Below, one piece after another: positions 10,397-18,382 of a stretch of 64,000 nt of DNA (within the stretch, counting starts at the first letter, position 1; each line of letters starts with the position of its first letter). The stretch is from Mycobacterium seoulense. GTDB taxonomy: Bacteria > Actinomycetota > Actinomycetes > Mycobacteriales > Mycobacteriaceae. The position numbers and the translations under genes were made by a program. Where the stretch lies: NCBI RefSeq assembly GCF_010731595.1, contig NZ_AP022582.1:2356001-2420000 (forward strand), read 5' to 3'. Below the pieces are notes generated by a model that worked only from the letters and a program-made list of their open reading frames with translations, was not told the DNA's origin and did not search any database.

Positions 10397-11569
10397 CTAC
10401 CCCAGGACGGTGCGCACCACCGCGTCGGCCAGTAGCCGTCCGCGCGCCGTCAGGACGAACCGGTCGGCGTCGGCGACCAGCAGCCCGTCGGCGACCGCGC
10501 CTTCGGCGCGCTGTTGCTCGGCGGGTCCCAGCACGTCACGCGGAAGACCTTGGCGCAGGCGGGTTTTCAACAGCACATCTTCGGTGTGCAGGGCGTCGGC
10601 ATCCAGCCGCTCGAATCCCCCCACCGGCAACGTGGCACCGGCCAGCCTTTCGGCATAGGCGTTGGGGTGCTTGACATTCCACCACCGCGTGGCGCCGACG
10701 TGGCCATGGGCTCCCGGTCCGGCGCCCCACCACTGGCCGCCGTCCCAATAGCCGAGGTTGTGTCGGCACTCACCGCCGGGACGCGCCCAGTTGGACACCT
10801 CGTACCAGGACATCCCGGCCTCGGAGAGCCGCGCATCGACCAACTCATAGCGGTGCGCCAGCACGTCGTCGTCGGGAGGCGTCAGCTCGCCGCGGCGTAC
10901 CCGCCGGGCCAGCGCGGTGCCGTCCTCGACGACCAGCGCGTAGGCCGACACGTGATCGACGCCGGTGTCGATCGCCGTGTCGACAGAGCGCAGCAGATCG
11001 TCGTCGGACTCCCCCGGGGTTCCATAGATCAGATCGAGGCTGACGTGCTCGAAGCCGGCGTCCAACGCTTCGCGGGCGGCGGCCGCCGACCGGTTCGGGG
11101 TGTGGATGCGGTCGAGGACCCCCAGCACTCGCGGCGACACCGACTGCATGCCGAGCGACACCCGCGTGTAGCCGGCCGCGCGGACGGCGTCGAAGAAGTC
11201 CGGCCAGGCCGACTCCGGGTTGGCCTCGGTGGTGATCTCGGCATCGGGCGCCAGCGTGAAATGCTCGCGGACCATGTCCAGCAGCGACGCCACCCGCGCA
11301 CCGCCCAGCAGCGACGGCGTCCCGCCCCCGACGAACACCGTGTCGACGGTCGGCCCGGGGAGCCGCTCGGCGGCCAGCTTCAGCTCCGCCCCCAGCGCCG
11401 CCAGCCAGGCGTCGGGATTCACCCCACCCAGCTCGGCGGGTGTGTAGGTGTTGAAATCGCAATAGCCGCAACGGGTTATGCAGAACGGAACGTGGATGTA
11501 CATCCCGAACGACCGTCCGGGGACGGGCTGCAGGTCGGGCAGCGCGACCGCTTCCTCGCGAAGTGCCAT
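10397..11569 (-). CDS. hemW: HemW, radical SAM heme chaperone (formerly HemN-like)
   Basis: A 390-aa radical SAM protein. The [4Fe-4S] motif C30-x3-C34-x2-C37 (CITRCGYC) and the GGGTPSLL block are visible, and the length suits HemW rather than the longer coproporphyrinogen oxidase HemN. The four-cysteine start region typical of true HemN is not seen, so a heme-carrying or insertion role is the better call than the older oxygen-independent oxidase label of Rv2388c. It is divergent from the sirA leader. In M. tuberculosis rpfD and Rv2390c lie between these genes; both are missing here. Confidence 0.85.
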   Translation of the reverse strand: MALREEAVALPDLQPVPGRSFGMYIHVPFCITRCGYCDFNTYTPAELGGVNPDAWLAALGAELKLAAERLPGPTVDTVFVGGGTPSLLGGARVASLLDMVREHFTLAPDAEITTEANPESAWPDFFDAVRAAGYTRVSLGMQSVSPRVLGVLDRIHTPNRSAAAAREALDAGFEHVSLDLIYGTPGESDDDLLRSVDTAIDTGVDHVSAYALVVEDGTALARRVRRGELTPPDDDVLAHRYELVDARLSEAGMSWYEVSNWARPGGECRHNLGYWDGGQWWGAGPGAHGHVGATRWWNVKHPNAYAERLAGATLPVGGFERLDADALHTEDVLLKTRLRQGLPRDVLGPAEQQRAEGAVADGLLVADADRFVLTARGRLLADAVVRTVLG

Positions 11570-11686
11570 GCCAAATCATCCCACGGTGCGCCGCCCCCGG
11601 CCGGGCCGCCGACCGCGGCGCAGCGCACCCCGACTCCGGCAGGTTTCTTGGGTTCTTTTACCCGGACGGTCAGGTTAATGCGGATT

Positions 11687-11705
11687 TCCGCTCACCGTGA
11701 GCGGA
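11687..11705. promoter_or_regulatory. 19-bp near-perfect palindrome upstream of the sirA leader
   Basis: TCCGCTCACCGTGAGCGGA has 9-bp arms around a single central base. It lies 49-67 bases upstream of the GTG (and probable transcription start) of the sirA cysteine leader, and 118 bases from the hemW start. The size and symmetry fit a dimeric regulator site; the regulator is unknown. Confidence 0.5.
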
Positions 11706-11753
11706 TATTTGACCTGTTCGCGTCGCCCCCATCGGGCATGGCACAATGGGCTC

Positions 11754-11846
11754 GTGACCGTCGCTCAGCCCAGCCTTCGCATTGCGCTCGTGGCGCGGCG
11801 GCACATTGATCTCAAGCGTGTTTGCAGCTGTTGCTGTCTTCCTTGA
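11754..11846 (+). CDS. cysteine-rich leader peptide upstream of sirA-cysH
   Basis: A 30-codon ORF starting GTG ACC and ending with the residues KRVCSCCCLP, four cysteines in five codons just before the stop. It has no ribosome binding site, but CACAAT lies 6 bases upstream of the GTG, the layout of a leaderless mycobacterial transcript. Leaderless polycysteine ORFs acting as cysteine-responsive attenuators are known in mycobacteria upstream of sulfur genes. Here, GTCTTCCTT at 11836-11844, within the last codons, can pair with AAGGAGAC at 11942-11949, the sirA ribosome binding site (8 pairs, one bulge). Stalling at Cys codons when cysteine is scarce would keep that site free. The pairing model is inference. 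Confidence 0.8.
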   Translation: MTVAQPSLRIALVARRHIDLKRVCSCCCLP

Positions 11847-11956
11847 TGTCGTAGACCCGCCCACCTGTACGTCCAGCTGGCATCGGATCTGCGCCGCCGA
11901 TACCACCGGTGAGCTGCGCTTCTATGCCTGCGATGTCGAAGAAGGAGACCTCCTCG

Positions 11957-13636
11957 ATGACCACAGCCCGACCCGCCGGGGCGCAGAACAAGGCTCGCAA
12001 CGAGGGCCAGTGGGCGCTGGGCGATCGCGAGCCACTGAACCCCAACGAAGAGATGAAGCGCGCCGGCGCCCCGCTCGAGGTGCGCGAGCGCATCGAGAAC
12101 GTCTACGCCCAGGCCGGGTTCGACAGCATCGACAAGAGTGACCTGCGCGGGCGCTTCCGTTGGTGGGGGCTTTACACCCAGCGCGAACAGGGCTACGACG
12201 GCACGTTCACCGGGGACGAGAACGCCGATCTGCTCGAAGCCAAGTACTTCATGATGCGGGTGCGCTGCGACGGCGGCGCGCTGTCGGCCGCCGCGCTGCG
12301 CACCGTCGGCGAGATCTCGACCGAGTTCGGGCGGGACACGGCCGACATCTCCGACCGCCAGAACGTGCAGATGCACTGGATCGAGGTCGAAAACGTCCCC
12401 GAAATCTGGCGGCGACTCGCCGACGTGGGCCTGCAGACCGCCGAGGCGTGCGGCGACTGCCCCCGCGTCATCCTGGGCTCACCGCTGGCCGGCGAGTCGC
12501 TCGACGAGGTGCTCGACCCGACCTGGGCGATCGACGAGATCGTGCACCGCTACATCGGCAAGCCGGACTTCGCCGACCTGCCACGCAAGTACAAGACCGC
12601 GATCTCGGGTCTGCAGGACGTCGCGCACGAGATCAACGACATCGCCTTCATCGGCGTGAACCACCCCGAGCACGGGCCCGGCCTGGACCTGTGGGTCGGC
12701 GGCGGTCTGTCCACCAACCCGATGCTGGCCCAGCGGGTCGGCGCCTGGGTGCCGCTGAACGAAGTCCCCGAGGTCTGGGAGGCGGTGACCTCGATATTCC
12801 GTGACTACGGCTACCGGCGGCTGCGGTCCAAGGCCCGGCTGAAGTTCTTGATCAAGGACTGGGGCATCGAAAAATTCCGCGAGGTGCTCGAAACGGAGTA
12901 CCTCAAGCGGCGGCTGATCGACGGCCCGGCGCCCGAGCCGCTCAAGCATCCGATCGATCACATCGGGGTGCAACGGCTCAAGAACGGTCTCAACGCCGTC
13001 GGTGCGGCCCCGATCGCCGGACGCGTCTCGGGCAGCATCCTGTCGGCGGTCGCCGACCTGATGGACCTCGCCGGCTCGGACCGGATCCGGTTCACCCCCT
13101 ACCAGAAGCTGGTCATCCTCGACGTCGCCGACGACAAACTCGACGAGGTGCTCGCGGGTCTGCAGGCGCTGGGGCTGCAGACCCAGCCGTCCCAGTGGCG
13201 CCGGAACTTGATGGCCTGCACGGGGATCGAATACTGCAAGTTGTCGTTCGCCGAAACCCGAGGCAAGGCGCAGGTTCTGGTGCCCGAGCTGGAACGCCGG
13301 CTCGAGGACATCAACGCCGCGCTCGACGTGCCGATCACGGTCAACATCAACGGTTGTCCGAACTCGTGCGCACGAATTCAGGTGGCTGACATCGGCTTCA
13401 AGGGCCAAATGGTCGACGACGGTCATGGGGGCTCCGTCGAGGGCTTTCAGGTGCACCTGGGCGGCAGCCTCGGGCTGGACAGCGGATTCGGGCGAAAGCT
13501 GCGCCAGCACAAGGTCACCAGCGACGAGCTGGGCGATTACATCGACCGGGTGGTGCGTAACTTCATCAACCACCGCAGTGCGGGAGAACGGTTCGCGCAG
13601 TGGGCGATTCGGGCAGATGAGGACGACTTACGATGA
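11957..13636 (+). CDS. sirA: ferredoxin-dependent sulfite reductase SirA
   Basis: A 559-aa siroheme/[4Fe-4S] enzyme that reduces sulfite to sulfide with ferredoxin; long annotated as nirA. The ATG at 11957 (MTTARP) has GAAGGAG upstream and matches the M. tuberculosis start; upstream in-frame starts are not needed. The cofactor cysteines appear as CTGIEYC and CPNSC near residues 415-470. RWWGLYTQREQGYDG and TEACGDCPR contain the Tyr and Cys that are covalently linked in the M. tuberculosis enzyme. Its stop overlaps the cysH ATG (ATGA), so the two are translationally coupled. Expression is probably governed by the upstream cysteine leader and palindrome. Confidence 0.95.
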   Translation: MTTARPAGAQNKARNEGQWALGDREPLNPNEEMKRAGAPLEVRERIENVYAQAGFDSIDKSDLRGRFRWWGLYTQREQGYDGTFTGDENADLLEAKYFMMRVRCDGGALSAAALRTVGEISTEFGRDTADISDRQNVQMHWIEVENVPEIWRRLADVGLQTAEACGDCPRVILGSPLAGESLDEVLDPTWAIDEIVHRYIGKPDFADLPRKYKTAISGLQDVAHEINDIAFIGVNHPEHGPGLDLWVGGGLSTNPMLAQRVGAWVPLNEVPEVWEAVTSIFRDYGYRRLRSKARLKFLIKDWGIEKFREVLETEYLKRRLIDGPAPEPLKHPIDHIGVQRLKNGLNAVGAAPIAGRVSGSILSAVADLMDLAGSDRIRFTPYQKLVILDVADDKLDEVLAGLQALGLQTQPSQWRRNLMACTGIEYCKLSFAETRGKAQVLVPELERRLEDINAALDVPITVNINGCPNSCARIQVADIGFKGQMVDDGHGGSVEGFQVHLGGSLGLDSGFGRKLRQHKVTSDELGDYIDRVVRNFINHRSAGERFAQWAIRADEDDLR

Positions 13637-14376
13637 GTGAACAAGCAACGAAACGAACCGAGGCCGAACTGCGGGACCTGGCGGCGCGGGGCGCCGCGGA
13701 ACTCGAGGGCGCCAGCGCCACCGAGGTGTTGCGTTGGACCGATCGGACCTTCGGCGGGGTCAACGGTCCGCGCAGCTGGGCCACCTGCAACTACGTATTG
13801 ACCTCCAGCATGCAGGAGGCCGTGCTGATCGATCTTGCCGCCAAGGTCCGCCCGGGTGTGCCGGTGGTCTTCCTGGACACCGGCTACCACTTCGCCGAGA
13901 CCATCGGAACCCGGGACGCCGTCGAATCGGTCTACGACATCCGCGTGCTCAACGTCACCCCCGAGCAGACGGTGGCCGAACAGGATCAGTTGCTGGGGAA
14001 GAACCTGTTCGACCGTGACCCGGGCGAGTGCTGCCGGTTGCGCAAGGTGGTGCCCCTGCGCCGCGTCCTGAGCGGCTACTCCGCCTGGGTGACCGGGCTG
14101 CGCCGCAGCGAAGCGAAAACCCGTGCCAACACCCCGGTGATCGGCTTCGACGAGGGGTTCAAGCTGGTGAAGATCAATCCCCTGGCGACGTGGACCGACG
14201 AGGACATGCAGGACTACATCGACGAGCACGGTGTGCTGGTCAATCCCCTTGTCTACGACGGATATCCGTCCATCGGCTGCGAGCCCTGCACGGCCAAACC
14301 CCTCGCCGGGGCCGACCCGCGCAGCGGGCGCTGGCAGGGGCTGTCGAAGACCGAGTGCGGGCTGCACGCCTCGTAG
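13633..14376 (+). CDS. cysH: adenylyl-sulfate (APS) reductase CysH
   Basis: A 247-aa thioredoxin-dependent reductase that converts adenosine 5'-phosphosulfate to sulfite and AMP, the step before SirA. The [4Fe-4S] cysteines of the APS-specific type are present as ECCRLRK and GCEPC, and the catalytic cysteine is in KTECGLH near the C-terminus; these separate it from PAPS reductases, which lack the cluster. The start overlaps the sirA stop by 4 bases. The following M. tuberculosis gene che1 (Rv2393) and ggtB are absent; cysH meets the convergent cysA after 13 bases. Confidence 0.95.
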   Translation: MSEQATKRTEAELRDLAARGAAELEGASATEVLRWTDRTFGGVNGPRSWATCNYVLTSSMQEAVLIDLAAKVRPGVPVVFLDTGYHFAETIGTRDAVESVYDIRVLNVTPEQTVAEQDQLLGKNLFDRDPGECCRLRKVVPLRRVLSGYSAWVTGLRRSEAKTRANTPVIGFDEGFKLVKINPLATWTDEDMQDYIDEHGVLVNPLVYDGYPSIGCEPCTAKPLAGADPRSGRWQGLSKTECGLHAS

Positions 14377-14389
14377 CAGAACCCGTGGC

Positions 14390-15475
14390 TTATGCCGACG
14401 TCAGCGTGGCTTCGTCCTCGCCGGCGCCGGCCGGACCACCGGCCGGCGCGTTGACGGCGAGGGACGGGATGCGGGTCGCGCGCACGTAAACGGTGTCGCC
14501 CTCACGCAGGGCCAGCGCCTCGGCGTCACCGCGGGTGATCTGCGCCGTGAAGGCCCCTCCGGTGGCGGCGCTGGTCAACTCCACCCGCACCTCGAAACCG
14601 AGCACCACGACGCGGTCGACGGTGGCGCGCACCACCCCGATCGACTCCGCGGTGCCATCCCCGCCGGCGATGGCCATCTCGGGGTTGCGGCCCACCCGGA
14701 TGTCGTGCGGGCGAACCAGATTCCCGTTCAGGGTGGACACCGCCCCCAGGAACGACATCACGAAGGCGCTCGCCGGGGCGTCGTAGACCTCGGTCGGCGA
14801 TCCCACCTGCTCGATACGACCGTGATTGAGCACCGCGATCCGGTCGGCCACGTCCAGCGCCTCCGCCTGGTCGTGGGTGACCAGGACGGTGGTGACGTGC
14901 ACCTCGTCGTGCAGGCGGCGCAACCACGCGCGCAGGTCCTCACGCACCTTCGCGTCGAGTGCGCCGAACGGCTCGTCGAGCAGCAGCACCTGCGGGTCGA
15001 CCGCCAACGCCCGCGCCAGCGCCATTCGCTGTCGTTGCCCGCCGGAGAGCTGATTGGGGTAGCGGTTCTGAAACCCGCTCAGCCCCACCACTTCCAGCAG
15101 GTTGTCGACCTTGGCCTTGACCTCCGCTTTGGGCCGTTTGCGAATCTTCAACCCGTAGGCCACGTTGTCACGGACCGTCAAGTGCTTGAACGCCGCATAG
15201 TGCTGAAACACGAACCCGATGCCCCGCCGCTGCGGCGGCACCCGCGTGACGTCTTGGCCGTTGATCGTGATCGTTCCGCTGTCGGGCTGGTCCAGCCCGG
15301 CGATGGCACGCAGCAGGGTCGACTTGCCGGAACCGCTGGGCCCCAACAGCGCGGTCAGCGAGCCGGAGGGCACGACGAAGTCGACATTGTCCAGGGCCAC
15401 GAAGTCGCCGTAGCGCTTGTTGGCGTTGTGCACGACGATGGCGTGGTCGCCGGGGCGGCTGCTGTTGTCGGTCAT
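14390..15475 (-). CDS. cysA: sulfate ABC transporter ATP-binding protein CysA
   Basis: A 361-aa ABC ATPase that powers sulfate/thiosulfate import with CysT, CysW and SubI. Walker [10 protein letters not shown] is at residues 45-53, the signature LSGGQRQR near 145, Walker B LLLDEPFG near 167, and the switch histidine in VTHDQAEA; a C-terminal TOBE-like regulatory domain follows. It is the last gene of the four-gene operon and starts 19 bases after the cysW stop. Confidence 0.93.
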
Positions 15476-15494
15476 CTGCGTGTCTCCATGTCAC

Positions 15495-16307
15495 CTACCT
15501 GGCCGCTCGCGCGCGGCGGGCATCCAAAATCACCTGGAAAATCAGGACCAGGACCGCAACGCCCATCAACAACGTCGAGAGCGCGTAGGCGCCGTATTCG
15601 GCGCCGCGGTTATACCGATCCGAGACGAGCAACGTCAGGGTCTGGGACTTACCCGGCAGGTTCGACGACACGATGATGACGGCCCCGTATTCGCCGAGGG
15701 TGCGCGCGATGGTCAGCACGATGCCGTAGGTCAGACCCCACCGGATCGAGGGCAGGGTGATCCGCCAAAAGGTCTGCCACCAGCCCGATCCCAGGGTCGC
15801 CGCCGCCTCTTCCTGGTCGGTCCCCAGTTCGTGCAGGACCGGTTCCACCTCGCGCACGACGAACGGCAGGGTGACGAAGACGCTGGCAAGCACGATGCCG
15901 GGCAGCCCGAAGATGATCTTGAACCCGAGGTCCTTCTCGACGAAGCCGAACGCGCCCGCCGATCCCCACAACAGGATCAGGGCGACGCCCACGATGACCG
16001 GCGACACCGCAAAGGGCAGATCGATCACCGCCTGCAGCACGCCTTTACCCCGAAACCTGTTGCGGGCGAGCACCAGCGCGGTAGGGATGCCGAAAACCAC
16101 GTTCAGCGGCACCACGATCGCAACGACCAGCAACGTCAGGTTGAGCGCCGACACCGCCGCGGGCGTGCTCACCCAGTCGAAGAACTGGCCGACGCCCGGC
16201 CGGAAGGTCCGCCACAAGATCAGGGTCACCGGGACGACGAGCAACACGAAAATGTATGCGAGCCCGACGAATCGGATCAGGTACCGGACCCTGGATCCTG
16301 AGGTCAC
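15495..16307 (-). CDS. cysW: sulfate ABC transporter permease CysW
   Basis: A 270-aa inner membrane permease with about six helices. The EAA loop that docks on CysA is EEAAATLGSGWWQTFWRITL followed by P. I chose the GTG at 16307 (MTSGSRVRYLIRF) because it overlaps the cysT stop as GTGA, which implies coupled translation; the longer upstream open frame is only cysT sequence in another frame. It pairs with CysT to form the channel. Confidence 0.9.
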   Translation of the reverse strand: MTSGSRVRYLIRFVGLAYIFVLLVVPVTLILWRTFRPGVGQFFDWVSTPAAVSALNLTLLVVAIVVPLNVVFGIPTALVLARNRFRGKGVLQAVIDLPFAVSPVIVGVALILLWGSAGAFGFVEKDLGFKIIFGLPGIVLASVFVTLPFVVREVEPVLHELGTDQEEAAATLGSGWWQTFWRITLPSIRWGLTYGIVLTIARTLGEYGAVIIVSSNLPGKSQTLTLLVSDRYNRGAEYGAYALSTLLMGVAVLVLIFQVILDARRARAAR

Positions 16308-17185
16308 CTGGCCAGCTCCTGACGCTTGGCCGCGCGCCCACCCACGATCCGCAGAATGAACAGCACGACAAACGAGATCGACAGCAGCACGATGGATATC
16401 GCGGCGGCACCGGTGCGGTCGTCGTTCTCGATGAGGGTTCGTATCCACTGCGAGGACACTTCCGTCTTGCCGGGTACCGCGCCACCGATCAGGACCACCG
16501 ACCCGAACTCGCCGATCGCTCGCGAGAAGGCCAGGCCCGCGCCGGACAACAACGACGGGGTCAACGACGGCAACACGACCGACGTGAAAACCTTCCGGCC
16601 GCTGGCACCCAACGACGCCGCCGCCTCTTCGGTCTCCCGGTCGATCTCCAACAGCACGGGCTGCACCGCACGCACCACGAAGGGCAGCGTGACGAAGGCC
16701 AGCGCCACCGCCACGCCCCATGCCGTGTGCTGCAGATGAAGGTTCACCGGGCTGTTGGTGCCGTAGAGGGCCAGCATCACCAGGCTGGCGACGATGGTCG
16801 GCAGCGCGAACGGCAGGTCGATGATGGCATCGACGAGCCGCTTGCCGACGAAATCATCCCGCACCAGCACCCAGGCGATCACCAGGCCGAAGACCAGATT
16901 CACCACCGTGACCCCGGCGGAGATGGTCAGCGTCACCCGGAACGACTCCAGGGCGGCGTTTGAGGTGATCGCCAGCCAGAAGGCGTGCCAGCCGCCGCCG
17001 GCGGCCTGCCATGCGATTGCGGCCAGCGGCAGCAGCACGATCACCGAAAGCCACAGCGTCGCCACGCCCACCCGCAGCGACGTGGCACCGGATTCGCGCG
17101 AACCCCGCGCCGACGGCGCGCGGTGCTCGTCGCCGCCGAGCCCGGGCCTGATTGCCTGCGGGCCGGGGGTGACTGCGGCCGTCAT
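16304..17185 (-). CDS. cysT: sulfate ABC transporter permease CysT
   Basis: A 293-aa permease. The ATG at 17185 overlaps the subI stop (ATGA), and an N-terminal polar tail of about 40 residues precedes the first helix (LWLSVIVLLPLAAIAW). The EAA loop is EEAAASLGASGRKVFTSVVL followed by P. Along with CysW it makes the membrane pore; SubI delivers the anion. The longer upstream frame reads through subI and is not used. Confidence 0.9.
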   Translation of the reverse strand: MTAAVTPGPQAIRPGLGGDEHRAPSARGSRESGATSLRVGVATLWLSVIVLLPLAAIAWQAAGGGWHAFWLAITSNAALESFRVTLTISAGVTVVNLVFGLVIAWVLVRDDFVGKRLVDAIIDLPFALPTIVASLVMLALYGTNSPVNLHLQHTAWGVAVALAFVTLPFVVRAVQPVLLEIDRETEEAAASLGASGRKVFTSVVLPSLTPSLLSGAGLAFSRAIGEFGSVVLIGGAVPGKTEVSSQWIRTLIENDDRTGAAAISIVLLSISFVVLFILRIVGGRAAKRQELAR

Positions 17186-18213
17186 CCGGTGGCCTGCGTG
17201 TAGATCTTGGTGATGCTGCCGGTGGTCTTGTCGAACAACTGCGGATCCGCGGCCTGCCAACCGCCGAGGTCGGCGATGGTCCACAGTTTTGCCGGCACCG
17301 GAAACTGGCCGCGGAATTCGGCCGCGACGGCCGGGTCGACCGGCCGAAAGCCGGCCTGCGCCCACACCTTCTGCGCCGCGGCCGTGTATTGGAAGTTCTT
17401 GAAGGCGACCGCGGCGTCCAGGTGCGGGCTGGTGCTCACCACCGCGACCGGATTCTCGATCTTGAACGTCTGCGACGGGTTGATGTGCTCCACCGGTTTG
17501 CCCGCGCTCTCGGTGGCGATCGCCTCGTTCTCGTAGCTGATCAACACGTCCCCGCTGCCCTGGACGAAGACGTCGGTGGCCTCCCGTCCCGAACCGGGAC
17601 GCAATTTGACGTGTTCGTGCACCAACTTGCTGATGAAGTCGACGCCGGCCTGGGTGTTGCTGCCACCTTCGCTCTTGACCGCATACGGTGCCAGCAGATT
17701 CCACTTGGCCGACCCCGAGCTCAGCGGACTGGGGGTGATGACCTCCACCCCCGGGCGCAGCAGGTCGTCCCAATCCTTGATGTTCTTGGGGTTGCCCTTA
17801 CGCACCACCAGAGTCACCACCGAACCGAAGGGAATTCCCTTGGTGGCGTCGGTATTCCAGTCTTTGGCAATCTTGCCGGCCTTTACCAGCCGGGAGATGT
17901 CCGGCTCGACGGAGAAGTTCACGACGTCGGCCGGCTTGCCGTCGAGGACCCCGCGTGATTGGTCGCCGGAGGCGCCGTAGGAGGCGATCACCTGCACGCC
18001 CTTGCCCTCGTCGGCGGCATTGAACGCCGGGATCACCTTGCTCCAGCCGGGTTCCGGGACCGAATAGGCGACCAGGGTGATGCTGGTGCGCGCGTTGGTC
18101 GGTCCGGAACCGCCGACGACGTCACTGGCACCGCCGCTGCACCCCGCCACGACCGCGACGATCAGGGCAACCGTGGCCGCCGGCCGCCACCGCAGGGCGA
18201 TGTCGTTGAACAT
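17182..18213 (-). CDS. subI: sulfate-binding lipoprotein SubI
   Basis: A 343-aa periplasmic sulfate/thiosulfate-binding lipoprotein. An N-terminal signal with the lipobox VVAGC (Cys at about residue 25) anchors it, and the mature part follows the sulfate-binding protein pattern (LVAYSVPEPGWSKVIPAF, SYGASGDQSRGV, SPLSSGSAKWNLLAPY). The ATG is preceded by GGAAGG with a 5-base spacer. It is the first structural gene of subI-cysT-cysW-cysA, each junction overlapping or nearly so. A short ORF ending in two Cys codons lies 112 bases upstream and probably controls it. Confidence 0.93.
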   Translation of the reverse strand: MFNDIALRWRPAATVALIVAVVAGCSGGASDVVGGSGPTNARTSITLVAYSVPEPGWSKVIPAFNAADEGKGVQVIASYGASGDQSRGVLDGKPADVVNFSVEPDISRLVKAGKIAKDWNTDATKGIPFGSVVTLVVRKGNPKNIKDWDDLLRPGVEVITPSPLSSGSAKWNLLAPYAVKSEGGSNTQAGVDFISKLVHEHVKLRPGSGREATDVFVQGSGDVLISYENEAIATESAGKPVEHINPSQTFKIENPVAVVSTSPHLDAAVAFKNFQYTAAAQKVWAQAGFRPVDPAVAAEFRGQFPVPAKLWTIADLGGWQAADPQLFDKTTGSITKIYTQATG

Positions 18214-18325: not shown

Positions 18326-18382
18326 TCAGCGACAACAGTGCACGAAGACATGGCGTTCGACGACACCCGATGTCACCTGCAT
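18326..18382 (-). CDS. candidate cysteine leader peptide upstream of subI
   Basis: An 18-residue ORF, MQVTSGVVERHVFVHCCR, with two consecutive Cys codons just before the last codon and stop. There is no ribosome binding site; TAGGCT lies 7 bases before the ATG, the usual spacing for a leaderless start. The ORF ends 112 bases before subI, nearly the same distance as between the other cysteine leader and sirA. Downstream, CCTTTCC (minus strand, 18260-18266) could pair with the subI ribosome binding site GGAAGG (18219-18224). Regulation by cysteine supply is inferred from these parallels. Confidence 0.65.
   Translation of the reverse strand: MQVTSGVVERHVFVHCCR

Follow-up and report, generated by a model that had tools for sequence, protein, structure and literature searches.

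The short ORF upstream of sirA in Mycobacterium seoulense is most probably a leaderless cysteine leader of the Ms4527A type, which belongs to the sirA–cysH operon and attenuates sirA in response to cysteine (we put the probability of this reading at about 0.85). The window analysed is a stretch of 64,000 nucleotides of contig NZ_AP022582.1 (positions 2,356,001 to 2,420,000). In this reading, transcription would start at or adjoining the GTG of the leader, and the ORF would be translated without a ribosome binding site (RBS). When charged tRNA-Cys is scarce, ribosomes would dwell on the Cys codons of the leader, and their shifted position would alter folding of the leader RNA and lead to more sirA translation. 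The general attenuation mechanism is very probably right. It is supported here, at the level of sequence comparison, by family membership, a conserved leaderless architecture, conserved Cys codons and RNA selection in the ORF; that it operates in M. seoulense, and through which pairings, we infer. The earlier note, a reading of the raw sequence, had proposed a cysteine attenuator of sirA with a specific pairing switch. Family membership, conservation and the literature bear out the attenuator and not the specific switch as the main one. Our analysis ties that reading to a published system while amending its detail.

The leader ORF (11754–11846, plus strand) starts with GTG and has 30 codons, with the product VTVAQPSLRIALVARRHIDLKRVCSCCCLP followed by a stop. 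Its translation matches the profile NF042936, named "Ms4527A family Cys-rich leader peptide", over profile positions 1–21 of 21 with 57.9 bits against a cut-off of 45, and the 30-codon GTG ORF claimed upstream of sirA is real. Translation places the codons for C-S-C-C-C at 11823–11837 (plus strand), and the Cys codons start at 11823, 11829, 11832 and 11835. This run had been described as ending the ORF just before the stop. It is present, but it does not quite adjoin the stop because two codons, Leu-Pro, come after it. The spacer from the leader stop to the ATG of sirA at 11957 is 110 nt, the length given previously. A −10-like hexamer, CACAAT (11742–11747, plus strand), lies 6 nt upstream of the GTG, and its pattern is kept across leaders: CA[CG]AAT-N6/7-RTG precedes the peptide core in 193 of the 194 distinct leaders and occurs in 0 of 194 control stretches of equal length taken within sirA. 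The conserved spacing is compatible with a leaderless start of the leader ORF. A sigma-70-type promoter scan of 11500–12100 found none, the M. seoulense −10 being the looser CACAAT. When starts were picked by the −10 pattern, none of the 194 distinct leaders had GGAG, AGGA or GAGG at 4–14 nt 5′ of the start, in agreement with the claimed lack of a leader RBS.

The sirA gene (11957–13636, plus strand) encodes a nitrite/sulfite reductase, as indicated by PF01077, PF03460 and its translation. Its RBS, AAGGAG (11942–11947, plus strand), is contained in AAGGAGAC at 11942–11949. A cysH-like PAPS reductase gene (13633–14376, plus strand; PF01507) overlaps the 3′ end of sirA, and the position of sulfite reductase and PAPS reductase genes downstream of the leader favours an attenuator. 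The host genome is 5.53 Mb, and the sirA product is 95–96% identical (best segment) to proteins of Mycobacterium sp. 4858 and M. parascrofulaceum. The genome also carries another sirA-like gene (73% identity) at G000:C1:2177169-2178842 (locus L153); inspection by eye of about 480 nt upstream of it found no Cys cluster.

The leader is widely conserved. At E up to 0.1, NF042936 matched 145 of the 148 Mycobacterium genomes; it exceeded the curated cut-off in 121 of the 148, and two genomes (G260 and G265) gave only weak matches. Among 199 genomes drawn from the order, 119 matched at E up to 1e-4 and 26 were over the cut-off. The leader and sirA occurred together at 235 of 253 loci (194 distinct, some of them outside Mycobacterium). 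Leaders were grouped by peptide into IDLK, which includes M. seoulense, and VDFK, with slow and fast as working labels, as most named members seem to fall so. The Cys codons stand at fixed places in the 145 leaders whose core has the most frequent length, all of which have the first and last Cys. Points against an attenuator are that folding gave no consistent opening of the RBS, that 3 of the 148 genomes were unmatched and some matches were weak, and that the leader has no Rfam family; Rfam covariance models gave 0 matches in 10500–16000 at E up to 1.

The earlier statement that cysteine attenuators of this kind are known in mycobacteria agrees with the family NF042936 and with passages of four publications (PMC4633059, PMC1262725, PMC9031893 and PMC13236596). 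The legend of Fig. 7C in PMC4633059 (2015) includes nirA/Msmeg_4527 among the conserved small proteins of leaderless mRNAs, so that the orthologues have a conserved leaderless uORF at this locus, and a passage of that paper puts attenuation forward as speculation. A passage of PMC1262725 (2005) describes Cys-run leader peptides before a cys operon in mycobacteria; the gene is given without a name there, and we therefore only infer that this is the sirA leader locus. Cysteine-dependent translation attenuation is summarised in passages of PMC9031893 and PMC13236596, and short accounts of Canestrari et al. 2020 appear in PMC9031893, PMC9094748 and PMC13236596; cysteine-responsive attenuation of this leader class in M. 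smegmatis is published, as these passages indicate. Given the NF042936 match, the nirA/Msmeg_4527 uORF and the Cys-run leaders of 2005, both the type of the M. seoulense sirA leader and its locus were known before.

The codons of the leader are constrained beyond the peptide. Each of the 145 leaders sharing the most frequent core length uses TGT as its last Cys codon, against a TGT usage of 9% in sirA of the same set. The middle Cys codon was TGT in 136 of 139 leaders (9% in sirA), the Ser codon was AGC in 105 of 105 (23% in sirA) and the Leu of DLK was CTC in 65 of 67 (34% in sirA). The final codon, mostly for Pro, Ala or Ser, ended in T in 120 of 145 leaders versus 3.6% expected. Binomial figures for these counts overstate significance because the leader sequences are related. 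After near-identical leaders had been removed, TGT was the last Cys codon in 22/22 and 44/44 leaders of the thinned sets, and the final codon ended in T in 22/22 and 34/44. Two Cys codons are nearly always TGT and the remaining ones are a mixture of TGC and TGT; slow decoding of TGT alone would therefore not account for this. This codon constraint in the leader ORF is new here and, as far as sequence comparison goes, shows selection on the RNA sequence besides the peptide. The pairings of cysteine attenuation are described in general terms in the published passages. TGT, AGC, CTC and NCT at fixed places provide a testable handle on the pairings that set it.

Leader RNAs were folded as ensembles, a type of prediction that ignores kinetics and coupling to transcription, and the edge of the ribosome footprint was assumed to lie 12 nt past the first A-site base. 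Masking the footprint at the Cys codons or at the stop produced no consistent opening of the RBS in these ensembles, and the median change was about 0. In the ribosome-free M. seoulense leader, opening the RBS cost 3.67 kcal/mol; the cost was 5.98 kcal/mol when a ribosome occupied the first Cys and 3.40–3.66 kcal/mol when it occupied the later Cys codons. Covering the tail therefore helps, in line with the reasoning of the earlier note, if the reference is a first-Cys ribosome, but not if it is the free leader. Ensemble folding also predicted a longer stem, with the 5′ arm UUGAUGUCGUAG (11843–11854, plus strand) and the 3′ arm CUGCGAUGUCGA (11928–11939, plus strand) just upstream of the RBS. 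In the ribosome-free leader its probability was 0.30. A ribosome placed on the first Cys raised it to 0.77 (0.73 when others queued behind), a change that would impede sirA instead of aiding it, and stalls at Cys codons 26 and 28 lowered it to 0.13 and 0.002.

In the VDFK group the RBS is in a local GGCUCC:GGAGCC hairpin, with a median pairing of 0.67 and 89.5% of cells paired (49 leaders). The spacer contains a conserved element (11885–11919, plus strand) with a GCGC:GCGC central hairpin, which was 95.2% paired in 49 VDFK leaders and 84.5% paired in 25 IDLK leaders; no covariation above shuffles was found in this element. When CGUAGA:UCUGCG or the central hairpin was imposed on the fold, stalling still failed to open the RBS consistently. 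A comparison of leader and spacer for covariation had been suggested: pairing of the tail stems and of the local RBS and central hairpins was far above slid controls and little above column shuffles, because most columns hardly vary. In VDFK relatives the spacer element, CAGCTGGCCGCCGGATCTGCGCCGCCGG, ranks with the best-conserved DNA of the leader and is apparently non-coding. A second coding ORF in the spacer was considered and, on visual inspection, rejected, since indels break its frame. Pairing of the post-stop region with GGAUCUGCG was dropped because its support was largely limited to CGTAGA leaders (p<0.05 versus shuffles in 51 of 93 of them, and in only 8 of 57 leaders without CGTAGA).

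How the position of the ribosome would be transmitted to sirA can be read in several ways. The abstract of Canestrari et al. 2020 reportedly describes a response to cysteine limitation at six loci, with RBS-hiding structures that are blocked by ribosomes stalled in the polycysteine tract. The earlier note had proposed a switch built on the strand GTCTTCCTT (11836–11844, plus strand), which would pair with AAGGAGAC at 11942–11949 until a ribosome on the Cys codons covers it and the RBS opens. The complementarity exists as stated, with 8 pairs and one bulge. The duplex reached −9.0 kcal/mol in M. seoulense, while 200 synonymous recodings averaged −4.6 (p 0.035); taken alone, this is modest evidence above chance. 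In the IDLK group the median was −6.5 versus −5.1 for recodings (p<0.05 in 35% of 63), and the helix was 85.5% paired over the cells of 25 IDLK leaders, but in the remaining 80 leaders the duplex was no stronger than synonymous recodings. The whole tail stem of the 25 IDLK leaders was 79.3% paired, compared with 41–57% in slid controls and 78.3% in column shuffles, and 2 pairs were changed on both sides. The 5′ strand of the helix, GTCTNCCTT (N = T, C or G in 5, 14 and 67 leaders, respectively), occurs in 86 of 145 leaders and is common also where the partner strand has changed; only 19 of the 145 have AAGGAGAC close to the start of sirA. The predicted mean probability of the helix was 0.001 in the full leader, lower than that of the longer stem (0.30) or of the ORF-internal hairpin described below (0.49). 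It was 0.10 when a ribosome occupied the first Cys (0.14 when others queued behind), and its pairs were at 0 for stalls at Cys codons 26 and 28. Mean pairing between RBS and tail was 0.06 in 24 IDLK leaders and 0.02 in 48 VDFK leaders. A ribosome stalled at the later Cys codons does cover the strand, as had been proposed, but one at the first Cys leaves it exposed. With a probability of 0.001 and its RBS strand near the sirA start in so few leaders, GTCTTCCTT:AAGGAGAC is not supported as the main switch; this direct mechanism is quite improbable, and the pairing contributes slightly at most, or only within certain lineages.

A hairpin inside the ORF competes, by prediction, for the strand earlier assigned to RBS pairing. 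Its 5′ arm is UGAUCUCAAG (11807–11816, plus strand) and its 3′ arm, CUUGAUGUCG (11842–11851, plus strand), covers the stop codon; the mean pair probability in the full M. seoulense leader was 0.49. The IDLK consensus of the hairpin is CGAUCUCAAG:CUUGAUGUCG with GCAGC:GCUGU within, and the Cys codons are predicted to lie in the loop. Depending on its position, a ribosome could lock, cover or free the 3′ arm and thereby set access to the RBS. Codon choice favours the hairpin, since its pair probability (four-column windows) was up to 0.76 in 23 IDLK leaders and 0.03 with random synonymous codons. UCAAG and CUUGA were both present in 22/22 thinned IDLK leaders and in 111/145 overall, and both arms are under synonymous constraint. 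However, the short DLK-tail duplex of the M. seoulense leader was no stronger than synonymous recodings (p 0.345), and the hairpin was weak in the VDFK group (0.145 versus 0.036 for recodings, 50 leaders). Forcing CGUAGA:UCUGCG or the central hairpin gave no RBS opening of the classical-switch type either, and forcing CGUAGA:UCUGCG in 24 VDFK leaders raised the opening cost (7.77 versus 5.24 kcal/mol). An attenuator based on this competition is a tentative proposal, and the predicted hairpin with Cys codons in its loop in IDLK relatives is new and would be the best new lead on the pairings. It is also possible, if rather unlikely, that peptide and RNA are both selected, that stalls at the first or last Cys free or cover the 3′ arm of an IDLK hairpin with the stop in its stem, giving a graded or two-way response, and that VDFK leaders use the local RBS hairpin. 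If this is true, the response of the sirA leader is graded or two-way and not a simple on switch.

Control could instead be transcriptional, with ribosome position deciding Rho-dependent termination in the C-rich spacer before sirA. A C-rich stretch (ACCCGCCCACC) is present 3′ of the leader stop, and a passage of PMC1262725 suggests Rho for mycobacterial cys leaders, although it calls its own prediction weak. This explanation is unlikely, as the published summaries give translational control (passages of PMC9031893 and PMC13236596) and 11500–12100 contains no terminator-like site; the search there for an intrinsic terminator before sirA, the mark of a terminator-type attenuator, found 0. The peptide itself might also act, with the stretch LVARRH[IV]D[FL]KRVC working in the ribosome tunnel or in trans. 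V6, R8, R9, D12, K14 and R15 are invariant in 145/145 leaders while the codons of V16 and L5 vary freely, the motif extends to Nocardia and Prescottella loci, and the generic model NF042934, which scored 26.7 bits on the sirA leader (cut-off 27), has the same stretch. In one leader (L029) the RRH core is gone although CSCCC is retained, and the heavy codon-level constraint points to RNA selection too; an action of the peptide is very doubtful. The preferred reading is still attenuation of sirA by a leaderless cysteine leader.

In amino acid attenuators of the trp/his type, control codons in a leader ORF act with a terminator. The sirA leader likewise has control codons in its ORF, here held in a predicted hairpin, but no intrinsic terminator was found and its start is of the leaderless type. 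Translation attenuators of the erm/cat type respond to an antibiotic, and the position of the ribosome controls access to the downstream RBS. The same role of ribosome position is proposed for the sirA leader, whereas its signal is amino acid shortage and folding did not reproduce RBS opening. The Ms5788A family (NF042933), found before cysA2, is a leaderless-type Cys leader of the same kind; its model scored 14.6 bits on the sirA leader ORF, below the cut-off of 45. An Ms5788A-family leader occurs in the same genome (L111:1483-1572; G000:C1:3542235-3542315; 47.6 bits against a cut-off of 45), and the ORF 3′ of it appears by eye to be thiosulfate sulfurtransferase-like. A possible second Cys leader, MQVTSGVVERHVFVHCCR, lies at 18326–18382 on the minus strand; its ATG follows a TAGGCT hexamer at a distance of 7 nt, and it precedes a solute-binding-protein gene (17182–18213, minus strand) in a sulfate-type ABC transporter cluster. 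NF042935, guessed to be a further leader family, was rejected as an unrelated model of 477 positions. The closest system is the Ms4527A family itself (NF042936; the uORF of nirA/Msmeg_4527). The M. seoulense leader comes from another species and its tail-RBS complementarity is stronger than in most relatives, but no defining difference was found: it has the same peptide, the same Cys run, the same leaderless-type start and the same place before sirA/nirA.
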